35,112 bases of DNA, from assembly GCA_019058515.1 (NCBI GenBank), contig JAHPYY010000122.1, positions 1 through 35,112 of the forward strand. Direction: 5' to 3'. The stretch's first letter is position 1. The number at the start of each line of letters is the position of its first letter. Both the position numbers and the translations under genes were made by a program. Below are positions 3,499 through 32,115 of this stretch, piece by piece. The notes under the pieces are model-generated. The model was not told the origin of the DNA. It did no database searches and saw nothing but the letters and a program-made list of their open reading frames with translations. This DNA is from Promethearchaeota archaeon. Lineage in GTDB: Archaea > Asgardarchaeota > Lokiarchaeia > Sigynarchaeales > SOKP01.

Positions 3499-4026
3499 CT
3501 ATTTCCCATTTATTTTACTTGAGTTTATTAAATAATCGAGTAATATATCGAACGCTAAGTTTACATTTAATCCTGATTTTGCCGATGTTTTAATAAAATC
3601 GATCATGTTCAACCGTTTTTGCAGTTTCTTAGCTAAGATGTCCCCAACCATCGAAAACTCTTTGAGATCGTATTTGGAAGCCACAAGTATTAACGGTAAA
3701 TTCTGATAATATTTTCTAACTAATTGGACCCATTTATCAATATTTACAAAACTAGTCATATTAGTGCAATCAAATAACACCAACGCTCCGCTCGCTCCTT
3801 TCATAAATCTATCGACGAGAAATCGAAATCGTACTTGTCCTGTTATGTCAGTTAGGATTAATTGACAGATTAACCCGTCTCGTTTAACATTTTTCGAAAA
3901 ATATTCTACACCTATTGTCATAGTCGTCGAATCTATAAACTCTCTATTCACATAGCGATGAAGTAACGTCGTTTTTCCGACGCCTCCGTCTCCTAATACA
4001 ATAAGTTTAAATACTTCTTGCTTCAT
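3499..4026 (-). CDS. Ras/Rab-like small GTPase
   Basis: A single-domain small GTPase of 175 residues, the size of eukaryotic Ras/Rab G domains. The P loop is GDGGVGKTT (12-20). Switch I has TTMTIGVEYF (34-43). The G3 motif is DITGQ (60-64) where Ras has DTAGQ. G4 reads ASKYD (116-120), with Ser where the usual NKxD has Asn. G5 is TSAKSG (147-152). The DCTNMTSF segment resembles the Rab DxTxxxSF motif. The C-terminus (NSSKINGK) has no cysteine and so no prenylation site of the CaaX or Rab type. The G4 serine may lower guanine specificity or affinity; that is inference. Multiple such GTPases are a hallmark of Asgard archaea. It is divergent from the molybdoenzyme operon and convergent with the ICMT-like gene. 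Confidence 0.95.
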   Translation of the reverse strand: MKQEVFKLIVLGDGGVGKTTLLHRYVNREFIDSTTMTIGVEYFSKNVKRDGLICQLILTDITGQVRFRFLVDRFMKGASGALVLFDCTNMTSFVNIDKWVQLVRKYYQNLPLILVASKYDLKEFSMVGDILAKKLQKRLNMIDFIKTSAKSGLNVNLAFDILLDYLINSSKINGK

Positions 4027-23996: not shown

Positions 23997-24136
23997 TTAA
24001 CCACTAAATCCCGTTCTTTAACTAATCTCTATATTTAGTTTATTAATGCTACATTGAAAAAGATTGGGAAAAAGAATTTACTAAGATATAGTCGTTGTTC
24101 AATATTATTTATTGGAAAATAAATAATAGAAATAGT

Positions 24137-25027
24137 CTAGATACTAGCTAAGACAAAGGAAATTAGCCCGAAATACGCTCCAAGCTTGAGAAACATACTA
24201 ATTTTCTTAAAATCTTCTCTAACTAAATTTTTCTTTATGATATTAATAACTGCAAGGATAACTATGGCTAAACCGAAGAACATCGAGACAAGGAATAGAA
24301 TCCGGTTTATAATATTTGTAAACACGGGAAGTACAAAGAAAATTATAGCGCAGATGGCGAATCCTAACGAGAAGTACGACGCTTTCTTTGTACCTAATTT
24401 AATCGCTAAGGTTTTAACTCCCTCTTCTCTATCACCTTCAAGATCTTCACATCCTTTAATAATTTCTCTAGATAGGAGCAAGAAAAATGAGGTTAAGAAG
24501 AAGAAGTAGATAAATATTGGGATGATTGAGCTGTTTAAAACCGCACCGTAAATTAAGCCAATTGAAAAAGAGAGAGAAACTACAATATTTCCAGGAAAGC
24601 CACTTTTTTTTCCCCATTTTGCGTATACCCAACCTATGAAACCAAAAAATATCGCTAGAATTACATTTAAAACTCCTAAATTTAAAACTAAACTGTGTAT
24701 TATTGAAAGCAAAACTCCAATTGCGTAGGTTAATGTAAAAATAATCCAAGCGTGTTTTACTGTAATGTCTCCCCTAGGAATAGGTCTTTCAGGGCGATTA
24801 ACTTTGTCAATAGGTAAATCGTAAATGTCGTTGATTACCATACCGGATCCGGCGATAAAGAAATATGTTAATATACCAATTATGATGTTAAATAATAATA
24901 CTTCGATTGAAACGCCTCTTGTGTTTAAAATTCCGATGATGACAGTCAAGCTCCCCATTATGCAGTTAATGGGTCGTAATACTTCAATTGAAGCCAATAA
25001 TCGACTTTTAAATGAGATTTCAGTCAT
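24137..25027 (-). CDS. UbiA-family prenyltransferase, probable digeranylgeranylglyceryl phosphate synthase
   Basis: The 296-residue membrane protein has eight or nine hydrophobic helices and both aspartate-rich prenyltransferase motifs: NDIYDLPIDKVNRPERPIPRG (split: NDIYDLPID at 66-74, then NRPERPIPRG) and EDLEGDREEG (194-203). These bind the Mg-diphosphate of the prenyl donor. In archaea the enzyme adds the second geranylgeranyl group to geranylgeranylglyceryl phosphate. The gene is third in a run with geranylgeranyl reductase and GGGPS, 28 bases after the latter, which supports this substrate over menaquinone- or heme-type acceptors. Length and motifs are complete. Confidence 0.9.
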   Translation of the reverse strand: MTEISFKSRLLASIEVLRPINCIMGSLTVIIGILNTRGVSIEVLLFNIIIGILTYFFIAGSGMVINDIYDLPIDKVNRPERPIPRGDITVKHAWIIFTLTYAIGVLLSIIHSLVLNLGVLNVILAIFFGFIGWVYAKWGKKSGFPGNIVVSLSFSIGLIYGAVLNSSIIPIFIYFFFLTSFFLLLSREIIKGCEDLEGDREEGVKTLAIKLGTKKASYFSLGFAICAIIFFVLPVFTNIINRILFLVSMFFGLAIVILAVINIIKKNLVREDFKKISMFLKLGAYFGLISFVLASI

Positions 25028-29598: not shown

Positions 29599-30084
29599 TC
29601 ACTTGAAATTAATCGAAATTTGACGATTCTTAGTTCTACGAACTATTGTTTTAACGATTACAACGAAGCTGATTACGGGAATTGAAATTGATACATACCA
29701 AATGACGGTGGCAAGTAAAATCTCACCTTTAATAAATCCAATAATCGCTTGATTGACACCTATACTCTCGTATTCAATTTGATTGAGTATATACTCATAT
29801 TTATCAATGACATTAATGCCAATAAAGATTAATCCTATAAATAAAAGTAAGAAAGCGCAGAACTGTACTATTAGATTAAAGACAACAAAGTAAACGGAGT
29901 TTTTAAGCTCCATTTTGTACAATTTATTAGCGACATAAACTCCGATAATGGAATTTAGAATGATTTCAAGAATTACGGCAAAATAGTTAAACTGAACTGA
30001 TATGTAATAGTTTGTATCGTATACTCCTCCTATTATTATAGTCTGGTTACCGAAATAGATATTAAAATAAATCAGTATCCTCAT
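29599..30084 (-). CDS. Integral membrane protein, unknown (pair member 2)
   Basis: This protein of about 161 residues has about four hydrophobic segments and no family motif I recognise. I chose the ATG at 30084; TTG at 30105 or GTG at 30096 would add a few residues and bring the start within 3 bases of the upstream stop. It follows another small multi-helix membrane protein closely and is almost surely co-transcribed with it. A two-component membrane complex is possible. The tail is basic (VRRTKNRQISINFK). Low-complexity, Ile/Phe-rich content makes homology hard to judge. Confidence 0.6.
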   Translation of the reverse strand: MRILIYFNIYFGNQTIIIGGVYDTNYYISVQFNYFAVILEIILNSIIGVYVANKLYKMELKNSVYFVVFNLIVQFCAFLLLFIGLIFIGINVIDKYEYILNQIEYESIGVNQAIIGFIKGEILLATVIWYVSISIPVISFVVIVKTIVRRTKNRQISINFK

Positions 30085-30108
30085 TGAGTACCACACAATA
30101 TTCAAAAC

Positions 30109-30708
30109 TTAAGATTTTTTAAGCGAATTTGGTAAATTCTTATAATCCGCATAATATTTTGTAAACAGAATATTGAATAAAAGGTGAAACATTAGAATTA
30201 TAAAAATCGATTCTGCAAGATATTGGGAAATGAATATTACCGCATCTTCGATATTAAAATCAATTCTATAGGCATAATAAAGAAAATTGGGTGTATAGTA
30301 AACAAAAAACAATAAAAAATCGAACGAGATTATACTTAGGACTAATACTAAAGAATCTCTAATATTTTGACGATATATAATCAAAACCAAAATAAGAGCT
30401 ATTGGAAAGAAAACCAGATATTGAATTAAGAACGTCAAATAATATTGAATTAGGTTCAAAGAAGGATAGTAAAAATGAAAGAAAAGAACAAGAATTCTAT
30501 TTACGATTAAATTAAATATTAAATGTACTCCAAAAAGGCATAGACTTAAAATTAGAGCATATTTGAACGAATAATCCCATTTTTTACGTTTTGCGTAGAA
30601 TAGAATAATAAAACAACTAGCCAAACTTATCAGAAGTGATTTTATAGATGAAAAAACTACATTTAATACTAAGAACGCTATCTCAATTGGTAAATCAGAT
30701 TGAAACAT
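30109..30708 (-). CDS. Integral membrane protein, unknown (pair member 1)
   Basis: The 199-residue protein has about five membrane segments, many aromatic and Ile/Leu residues and a short basic tail (KYYADYKNLPNSLKKS). I recognise no family or catalytic motif. It is divergent from the Fic gene with 157 bases between the start codons, so both may respond to the palindrome at 30824-30850. The next gene begins just after its stop. Function is open. Confidence 0.6.
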   Translation of the reverse strand: MFQSDLPIEIAFLVLNVVFSSIKSLLISLASCFIILFYAKRKKWDYSFKYALILSLCLFGVHLIFNLIVNRILVLFFHFYYPSLNLIQYYLTFLIQYLVFFPIALILVLIIYRQNIRDSLVLVLSIISFDFLLFFVYYTPNFLYYAYRIDFNIEDAVIFISQYLAESIFIILMFHLLFNILFTKYYADYKNLPNSLKKS

Positions 30709-30810
30709 TGTGATTCTTCACGAATAATAATTTTTATCGCCATTTATTCTTTATATTTTGATAATCTTGGGAAATATATTGAATCATAAATTTTAAATTT
30801 AGTATTACAC

Positions 30811-30820
30811 CTTTATATAT
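30811..30820 (+). promoter_or_regulatory. TATA box of the fic gene
   Basis: CTTTATATAT is a strong archaeal TATA box. Its centre is about 50 bp before the ATG at 30866, placing the transcription start near 30842, within the palindrome that follows. Confidence 0.65.
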
Positions 30821-30823
30821 AGT

Positions 30824-30850
30824 GCATTACTTTTATACTAAAAGTAATGC
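30824..30850. promoter_or_regulatory. Perfect 27-bp palindrome over the fic transcription start (probable operator)
   Basis: GCATTACTTTTA (30824-30835), a 3-base spacer TAC and TAAAAGTAATGC (30839-30850) form a perfect 12-bp inverted repeat. It begins 4 bases after the TATA box and covers the expected start site, the classic place for an archaeal repressor to block polymerase. It ends 15 bases before the ATG. If transcribed, half of it would be in the leader, so a hairpin role is less likely. Confidence 0.75.
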
Positions 30851-30865
30851 TAAATCAATAAAAAT

Positions 30866-31762
30866 ATGGTAACAATTGTAAATAAAACCATCAACGGTAC
30901 CGTCTATTACTACTTAAGACACTCCTATCGAGAAAGGGGTAAAGTAAAATTTATCGATCGAAGTTTAGGTAAGGACAAGAGCGAATTACGATACAATACT
31001 TTAAAAAAACACAAAGAAGAATTTGTGCGGGAAGTATTTACGCAATTATGGAAGGATAACATTGAAGATATCAAAAAAAAATACAATTCCAAGGTTAATA
31101 GGTTGACTCAAGTCTACAAAGATAATTACTTTCGTGATTTTGGAGTAAAGTTTACGTACAATACGAACAAAATAGAGGGTTCAAAATTGAATTTACAGGA
31201 AACGGGGCGTATTTTGGAAAATTCTGAAATCCAAATTTCCAAACCAATAAAAGATATAAACGAGGTTCAGCTACATTGGGAATGTTTTCAGGACATGCTT
31301 ACTACAAATCGCAATCTAAATATAGATTTAGTAATGGATTGGCACAGTACATTGTTTTCTCTGAGCTCTTACATGAAAGATGAAGCGGGAAAGTATCGAA
31401 CTGCTAATGTAAGCGTGTCTGGAAGCGAACAAGTTTTTCCCGAACCCCATCTTCTACTTGATTTAATAAAGGATCTTTTTAATTGGTACGATCAGAAAAA
31501 AGAGTTGATCCACCCCGTATTATTATCTTGTTTAATGCATTTAAGATTCGTATCAATCCATCCGTTTGCCGACGGCAACGGTCGCATGACTCGGTTAATT
31601 ATGAATTACATTTTACATAAAAATGATTATCTCATGTTCGACATTCCGGCAAAAGTAAGAGTGTCGTATTTCAAGTCTATTGAGCGTTCTTACCTAAATC
31701 AGGATGAAATGATATTCGTCGGGTGGTTTTGTAGGAATTACATAAAACACGCCAAATTTTAA
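30866..31762 (+). CDS. Fic domain protein (predicted AMPylator with N-terminal inhibitory motif)
   Basis: The 298-residue protein has an intact Fic motif, HPFADGNGRMTR (232-243), with His232 as the catalytic base. TNKIEG (100-105) matches the inhibitory (S/T)xxxE(G/N) motif, placed before the Fic core as in class II proteins; Glu104 would block productive ATP binding until relieved. A flap-like element GKYRTANVSVSG (175-186) is also present. The first 40 residues form a basic beta-hairpin-like segment (YYYLRHSYRERGKVKF) common in archaeal Fic proteins. It would transfer AMP from ATP to hydroxyl side chains of a protein target. No separate antitoxin gene is next to it, in agreement with built-in inhibition. 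It has a strong promoter with a palindromic operator. Confidence 0.95.
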   Translation: MVTIVNKTINGTVYYYLRHSYRERGKVKFIDRSLGKDKSELRYNTLKKHKEEFVREVFTQLWKDNIEDIKKKYNSKVNRLTQVYKDNYFRDFGVKFTYNTNKIEGSKLNLQETGRILENSEIQISKPIKDINEVQLHWECFQDMLTTNRNLNIDLVMDWHSTLFSLSSYMKDEAGKYRTANVSVSGSEQVFPEPHLLLDLIKDLFNWYDQKKELIHPVLLSCLMHLRFVSIHPFADGNGRMTRLIMNYILHKNDYLMFDIPAKVRVSYFKSIERSYLNQDEMIFVGWFCRNYIKHAKF

Positions 31763-31779: not shown

Positions 31780-32115
31780 TTATTTTTTGACTAGATTGTA
31801 AATTGTCTCTGCACCGTAACACCAACAAGGAGTCATGGTTATCGATAACCCTACATTGTTCGCTCGAAACTTCTCCGCACGTTCAACTGCTTCGGCTACG
31901 CCTCCAATCGTTGTATCTGCAATTACACATTCCACATCCATGCCGTTTGGGTGCTTTAAGGTTTGAGTTAACAATTCAGCATAACCTTTTGCCATGTCCA
32001 TAGTTTGTTCTTCTAGCGCTTCTCTAACACCCATTTCTCGACCGTCAATGGTAGGTCGAATAACTATTTTGGGTATCGACCTGCGAAGTCTATTCTTTCC
32101 TATATTAGTTTGCAA
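31780..32115 (-). pseudogene. fucI: L-fucose isomerase, N-terminal fragment only
   Basis: The 111-residue frame closely matches the first part of L-fucose isomerase: [46 protein letters not shown] and [19 protein letters not shown]. coli FucI (about 590 residues) has the same blocks in the same order. After GAETI the match stops abruptly, with YNLVKK and a stop codon 18 bases from the end of the convergent fic gene. The Mn-binding catalytic residues lie in the missing part, so the fragment cannot be an isomerase. The start ATG and the reading frame are intact, which suggests a recent truncation or a retained short protein. Confidence 0.9.

Follow-up and report, generated by a model that had tools for sequence, protein, structure and literature searches.

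How a Fic enzyme that is encoded alone is controlled in archaea is the question raised by a fic gene of the Promethearchaeota archaeon contig JAHPYY010000122.1 (assembly GCA_019058515.1), of which positions 1 to 35,112 were analyzed and are referred to here as the window. Fic proteins are widespread; control of the stand-alone archaeal ones is apparently not yet described, and among the results listed by our literature searches there was no description of such control or of archaeal fic operators. The window gene (30866-31762, forward strand) encodes 298 amino acids, and a perfect palindrome lies at its promoter. Comparison with related genes makes it likely that this Fic protein binds and represses its own promoter through its own N-terminal domain. 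The interpretation is based on paired half-sites in front of the genes, their link to Fic proteins that bear the domain, covariation of its strand residues with half-site bases, and half-sites that differ between paralogues. Because the half-site letters change together with the N-terminal domain, the enzyme is suggested to switch off its own gene.

Palindrome and half-sites of the window

A 12-3-12 inverted repeat with zero mismatches, GCATTACTTTTA-TAC-TAAAAGTAATGC, was located at 30824-30850 by both our own inverted-repeat scan and a pattern search, although a general repeat listing omitted it. The TATA box TTTATATA (30812-30819, forward strand), read directly and strong by the general consensus, ends 4 bases 5' of the palindrome, and the palindrome ends 15 bases 5' of the fic ATG at 30866. 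A sequence-only reading of the window had claimed such a mismatch-free repeat four bases after a strong TATA box, and the claim was confirmed. Transcription starting about 25 bp from TTTATATA is predicted to begin within the right arm of the palindrome. A weaker TATA-like alternative, TTTTATAC (30831-30838, forward strand; read directly), is found inside the palindrome, and its distance to the ATG would be nearer that of relatives than the distance from TTTATATA.

The earlier reading had overlooked a third half-site, O1 (ATTTAGTATTAC, 30797-30808, forward strand), which pairs at 11 of 12 positions with GTAATGCTAAAT (30844-30855); pairing this good was obtained in 68 of 20,000 shuffles of the left region. 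The left arm of the palindrome, GCATTACTTTTA, represents half-site O2 (30824-30835, forward strand). Half-site O3 (30839-30855, reverse strand; TAAAAGTAATGCTAAAT in plus-strand letters, core GTAATGC at 30844-30850) holds both the right arm and the partner of O1. O1 and O2 share one orientation and O3 has the opposite one, with a gap of 35 between O1 and O3 and of 13 between O2 and O3. The palindrome is, judging by these letters, part of a candidate three-half-site operator, and all three half-sites may be used. Three half-sites are unusual among relatives, but two loci (L006 and L176) seem by eye to have three too. The window half-site resembles the AAAAGTA half-site of L213 and L214.

When the whole window was dinucleotide-shuffled, 68 of 1029 shuffles contained perfect arms of at least 12 with a loop of at most 12, and the palindrome as an isolated event on that scale is only moderately rare. 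It is rare in the 157-nucleotide (nt) intergenic region, where 10 of 5000 shuffles gave perfect arms of at least 12. The palindrome pattern with up to 3 mismatches matched the window once, with 0 matches expected. Scans of the window for sigma-70-type promoters and terminators, with models ill-suited to archaea, did not rise above shuffles, and Rfam gave no match in the window. The second-best perfect inverted repeat of the window, TATTATTTATT-GGAA-AATAAATAATA (24103-24128), adjoins an open reading frame (ORF) ending at 24137.

Paired half-sites before related fic genes

Loci with fic genes were gathered from 80 genome-contig loci among the matches listed, 80 viral loci, and whole-genome searches of five archaeal phyla; there was no Asgard fic locus among the 80 genome-contig loci listed. 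Duplicates, genes with fewer than 80 nt upstream, those with a profile match starting at positions 15-49, and those with starts more than 6 residues off were dropped, leaving 180 genes, the window gene and 2 viral ones among them, for Fic proteins that have the N-terminal domain and 142 for Fic proteins that lack it. The latter set was mostly bacterial or viral, so the other ORFs of the same loci and the swaps between genes are the better controls.

In a 9-base test allowing either orientation, the left half-site matched the right one at 8-9 of 9 bases in 109 of the 180 domain-bearing fic genes. The same test succeeded in 409 of 3600 cases when left regions were swapped between genes, in 2 of 142 fic genes without the domain, and in 4 of 381 other ORFs. 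Since own pairs beat swapped pairs, the left half-site fits its own right half-site, and both change together. A spaced inverted repeat (score of at least 8 within 110 nt upstream, ending no more than 22 nt from the start) was found before 116 of the 180 domain-bearing genes, compared with 14 of 142 genes without the domain, 36 of 900 shuffles, and 20 of 381 other ORFs.

Ninety-five of the 109 matched pairs were inverted and 14 were direct. The gap was 32-33 in 59 of the 95 inverted pairs and 22-25 in 16, and direct repeats were mostly 29-32 apart. Most relatives carry a TATA-like sequence between the half-sites, with the ATG about 5-15 nt after the right one. The pairs argue for an operator at the core promoter, as the sequence-only reading had proposed, but its 12-3-12 form turned out not to be the family standard, relatives having mostly two half-sites with a 32-33-bp gap around the TATA box and some a direct arrangement. 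By this comparison, the window palindrome is a putative part of a control site that occurs in varied forms before related fic genes of several archaeal groups. The half-site appears to work either way round, which points to a reader of single sites on a flexible attachment more than to a rigid symmetric dimer.

The exact palindrome had 0 matches in viral contigs. A looser operator pattern, too loose for use, matched at least 120 stretches there. Searching viral sequence with the N-terminal domains of the window protein and its eight top-scoring relatives gave 94 pattern matches, 0 of them confirmed.

The N-terminal domain and its covariation with the half-site

The proposed DNA-binding domain is encoded by codons 1-62 (30866-31051, forward strand), with strands at residues 2-9, 12-23, and 26-35 followed by the start of a long helix. 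Its three beta strands and helix were predicted with a predicted local distance difference test (pLDDT) score of 93.8, and the predicted fold contains the three-stranded sheet plus helix of integrase arm-type and AP2-like domains. Structural matches to integrase arm-type and AP2 DNA-binding domains were weak and tied with unrelated folds; Foldseek with the domain gave nothing significant, Pfam and NCBIfam searches of seven N-terminal pieces gave no match over the cut-off, and a protein search with residues 1-62 alone returned only the window's own protein. The domain had 46 matches in 16 genomes, mostly in Fic-sized frames, the exceptions being several short fragments and one frame of 563 amino acids. 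This last match (G270:C1:640555-640725) lies in a frame longer than the other Fic-domain frames.

Covariation was analyzed in the 148 genes whose products had 100 residues or more and whose half-sites matched at no fewer than 7 of 9 bases. Residues 3, 5, 18, 20, 27, 29, and 31 of the domain covaried with half-site bases. The six top z-scores belonged to residues 27, 31, 5, 5, 3, and 29, which alternate along strands 1 and 3; residues 18 and 20 are in strand 2, and helix residues 44, 45, 49, 58, and 62 also covaried. Lys29 was accompanied by G4 in 73 of 85 genes, Thr29 by A4 in 24 of 29, and Tyr29 by A4 in 8 of 9. For residue 29 and position 4, 12 phylogenetically independent pairs were compared: 8 agreed, 0 disagreed, and 4 lacked a residue contrast (p = 0.0078). 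The corresponding counts, from few pairs, were 3, 1, and 5 for residue 27 and 3, 0, and 1 for residue 31.

Seven strand residues, picked after the data had been seen, predicted half-site bases from relatives less than 45% identical with an accuracy of 0.73, compared with 0.65 for helix residues, 0.58 for the opposite face, and 0.54 for the baseline. The gain was largest at position 4 (118 of 148 versus 58 and 78), and there was none at positions 3 and 7. The window half-site was predicted as GTAAGGG and is actually GTAATGC. In a partial Mantel test (n = 90; six half-sites in this data set were out of register (GTGTAGGGG), and later analyses were in register), half-site distance correlated with N-terminal distance given the catalytic part (r = 0.236, 0 of 2000 permutations); the value for the catalytic part was 0.101 (68 of 2000 permutations).

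The data are consistent with a mechanism in which each N-terminal domain, about 45 residues long and made of a helix carrying three beta strands, would use the exposed surface of its sheet to recognize a single half-site. Two or more copies of Fic would sit on the half-sites surrounding the TATA box and the start region. Bound Fic would then keep out TBP/TFB or RNA polymerase, and the gene would repress itself by occlusion of its core promoter. Physical binding, the oligomeric state, and repression by Fic are all inferred from sequence comparison here. The sequence-only reading had ventured that the N-terminal hairpin of Fic might itself bind the site, a speculation that the covariation and the comparison of paralogues below now back; as a whole, that reading was partly supported.

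Half-sites of co-resident fic genes

Paralogues within one genome never shared half-site positions 3-7 (0 of 26 pairs), and own half-sites fitted better than swapped ones in 20 of the 26 pairs, which rest on a partly hand-entered genome map where one half-site (L030) is probably mis-assigned. A scan of 14 genomes for the ACCCCTAC...GTAGGGGT form gave 13 places, spread over 9 genomes; nine of them precede fic, two follow it, one precedes a fic fragment, and one lies elsewhere. With 12 of 13 places at fic or a fic fragment, the site serves almost only the fic gene in the genomes tested. At one locus (L365:1501-1650, G091:C45), the operator is followed by a fic start that is soon stopped; an intact copy is present elsewhere in the same genome.

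Sites beyond the promoter

Four of the phylum searches gave 98 loci that could be tested for a further site 3' of fic; 8 of these had an inverted pair of the same half-sites 1-7 nt past the stop codon, compared with 0 of 4900 shuffles. The gap of this 3' pair equaled the 5' gap within 1 bp in 7 of the 8 loci, and the promoter is on the 5' copy alone. Since the 3' copies are judged not to be promoters, the spacing seems to be set by the binding protein. At one locus (L285), a second site, of a different class (GTGACTACA...TGTAGTCAC), comes within about 30 bases after the 3' site.

One archaeal genus (that of G860) was covered by 27 genomes, 10 of which contained the right flank of a particular fic unit: 2 carried fic with its sites, 1 the 3' end of fic with a site, 4 a single site, and 3 no site. 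The flank in the three site-less genomes starts at the site's outer boundary, and one site is present 0.5-1 kb away. Across the genus, 20 of 27 genomes had 1-6 sites (41 in total; pattern control 0). Genomes with several sites had them within 11 kb of a single contig; the exception was G1186, whose sites were split over two short contigs. In 20 fetched regions of this genus, 46 of 49 sites were intergenic, although 85% of the sequence was coding, and TATATA occurred in all 10 sites 5' of fic, in 3 of the 30 single sites, and in none of the 9 sites 3' of fic.

Every alignment that began and ended at a site (33 of 33) covered exactly the fic unit, and 28 of 53 fic-spanning alignments between loci started 40-75 nt before the ATG in both. 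The site-bounded alignments, together with occupied and empty places, suggest that the fic unit is moved or lost in one piece. Non-fic alignments ended at sites in 29 of 686 cases, with 25.2 expected. An integron-like cassette array, in which all genes would be exchanged at sites, was rejected on this count, as the fic unit alone is site-bounded. In a set of loci from one archaeal genus (L532-L551), single Fic-type sites stand between genes of a variable region whose order differs between genomes and which encodes toxin-antitoxin systems (HicA, MntA-HepT), a methyltransferase, TetR-ABC, and a DUF3427-helicase.

Alternative explanations

The repeats could primarily be the ends of a mobile or recombining site-fic-site unit, their place at the promoter being secondary. 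The 3' pairs with their matching gaps speak for it, as do the chromosomal place that is filled in some genomes of one genus and empty in three, the 33 site-bounded alignments, and the shared alignment starts before the ATG. However, 90 of 98 loci, including the window (by eye), have no 3' pair, no target duplication was seen by eye, no recombinase was identified in the 20 chosen proteins scanned from 20 regions, and non-fic alignments end at sites no more often than expected. Taken as the primary role, this explanation is unlikely, but the operator and unit-end roles do not exclude each other. A combined reading, which we put forward only tentatively and with considerable doubt, is that the half-sites are operator and boundary at once: the protein of an archaeal site-fic-site unit would read its own ends through the N-terminal beta-sheet domain, the residue-to-base code would keep co-resident copies apart, and the unit would insert or be lost, leaving empty places or single sites. 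If this were true, a self-regulating mobile element with no known recombinase would be built around a Fic enzyme.

Autorepression by Fic also has to be weighed against a separate, unlinked regulator, such as a host transcription factor, that would bind the operator with Fic merely as its target. Two points speak for such a regulator: Fic-DNA binding is a prediction from sequence, and half-site similarity partly tracks general relatedness, plain correlations being alike along the whole protein (r = 0.30-0.46 for all protein segments). But many matched regulators would be needed where none of the 26 same-genome paralogue pairs share a half-site, no neighbor gene is shared beyond 5 of 120 loci, the half-site bases track strand residues of Fic itself, and the single half-site class scanned in 14 genomes was almost confined to fic; we regard an unlinked regulator as improbable. 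It is still harder to see the window palindrome as a functionless chance repeat, irrespective of its relatives. Its frequency in shuffled whole windows and its departure from the usual family arrangement would allow this, whereas its rarity in intergenic shuffles, the promoter position shared with relatives, the matching outer pair O1-O3, and the likeness to the half-site of L213 and L214 make it very doubtful. Least credible is that the repeat acts within RNA, forming a 5' leader hairpin or a terminator. The 12-bp perfect stem with its 3-nt loop would fold if transcribed; in relatives, however, the left arm is upstream of the TATA box and hence outside the transcript, direct-repeat forms are unable to pair, and the window has no Rfam match.

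Autorepression through the N-terminal domain would provide a testable rule for a domain without a family name, Lys at residue 29 going with G4 and Thr or Tyr with A4. The rule predicts which promoters each Fic would bind, and archaea would offer a natural collection of mutually orthogonal repressor-operator pairs, each from one gene. The site-bounded units let one ask how fic genes spread between archaea.

The Fic protein and its surroundings

The window protein matched Pfam PF02661 (E = 9.2e-19), and its relatives in a protein search included ones named Promethearchaeota and Lokiarchaeota; the Asgard relatives were 41-51% identical to it. Its catalytic motif HPFADGNGR (codons 232-240, 31559-31585, forward strand; from sequence and alignment) agrees with the Fic signature HPFx(D/E)GN(G/K)R. 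The inhibitory-type motif (S/T)xxxE(G/N) is represented by TNKIEG (codons 100-105, 31163-31180, forward strand; from sequence), of which I103, E104, and G105 were invariant in 40 sequences. It lies N-terminal to the Fic core, an arrangement that we take to be that of class II Fic proteins. Double control of fic, by this motif and by the proposed operator, would fit the sequence.

The claim that no regulator gene adjoins fic was supported as far as annotation goes. Pfam gave no match in the two upstream ORFs on the other strand (30109-30708 and 29599-30105), although novel antitoxin families could escape such a search, and the largest neighbor family shared among relatives covered 5 of 120 loci. 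A 111-amino-acid ORF 3' of fic on the other strand (31780-32115) matches L-fucose isomerase in its first N-terminal domain only (positions 2-92 of 169). A Ras-family small GTPase is encoded at 3499-4026, in keeping with an Asgard archaeon.

Comparison with known systems

The phd-doc and other type II toxin-antitoxin operons (PMC2701414) resemble the archaeal family in having an autoregulated gene (proposed to be so here) of the Fic/Doc fold, but there the DNA-binding part is supplied by an adjacent antitoxin gene, whereas the archaeal fic has no conserved neighbor. No antitoxin gene was recognized next to the window fic, where the two upstream ORFs have no Pfam match and the downstream one is a fucose isomerase N1 fragment. 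CbFic2 of Coxiella burnetii, a Fic enzyme, carries an additional helix-turn-helix (HTH) domain with which it binds DNA (PMC10628234), and the archaeal family likewise has a predicted extra DNA-binding domain; in the portions of that source available, the domain is an HTH, random DNA was used, nonspecific binding was discussed, and an autoregulatory operator was not reported. The arm-type DNA-binding domains of phage-type integrases and the AP2 domains are also listed among the closest known systems for the predicted three-stranded sheet plus helix that they have in common with the archaeal domain.

The published precedent is CccR of Yersinia pseudotuberculosis, a Fic protein with a C-terminal HTH, which is reported to repress the gene that encodes it by way of AGATAATCAT-N26-ATGATAATCT, close to the -35 and -10 boxes (PMC9755527). 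In both systems, Fic and a DNA-binding domain (predicted here) are in one chain and repression is of the own promoter (proposed here); the two 10-bp inverted repeats of the CccR operator, with a 26-bp spacer at the core promoter, likewise find a counterpart in the long-spaced repeats of archaeal fic. CccR differs, by the same account, in being a bacterial, secreted effector with a C-terminal HTH. The 298-amino-acid chain of the window protein ends with the Fic core, PF02661 being its sole Pfam match, and since the archaeal family would work like CccR but without a C-terminal HTH, it is not classed as a CccR-type member. What sets it apart is a beta domain at the N-terminus that matches neither Pfam nor NCBIfam, half-sites that vary and follow a putative residue-base code, an inverted or direct arrangement, and sometimes a second copy after the stop codon.
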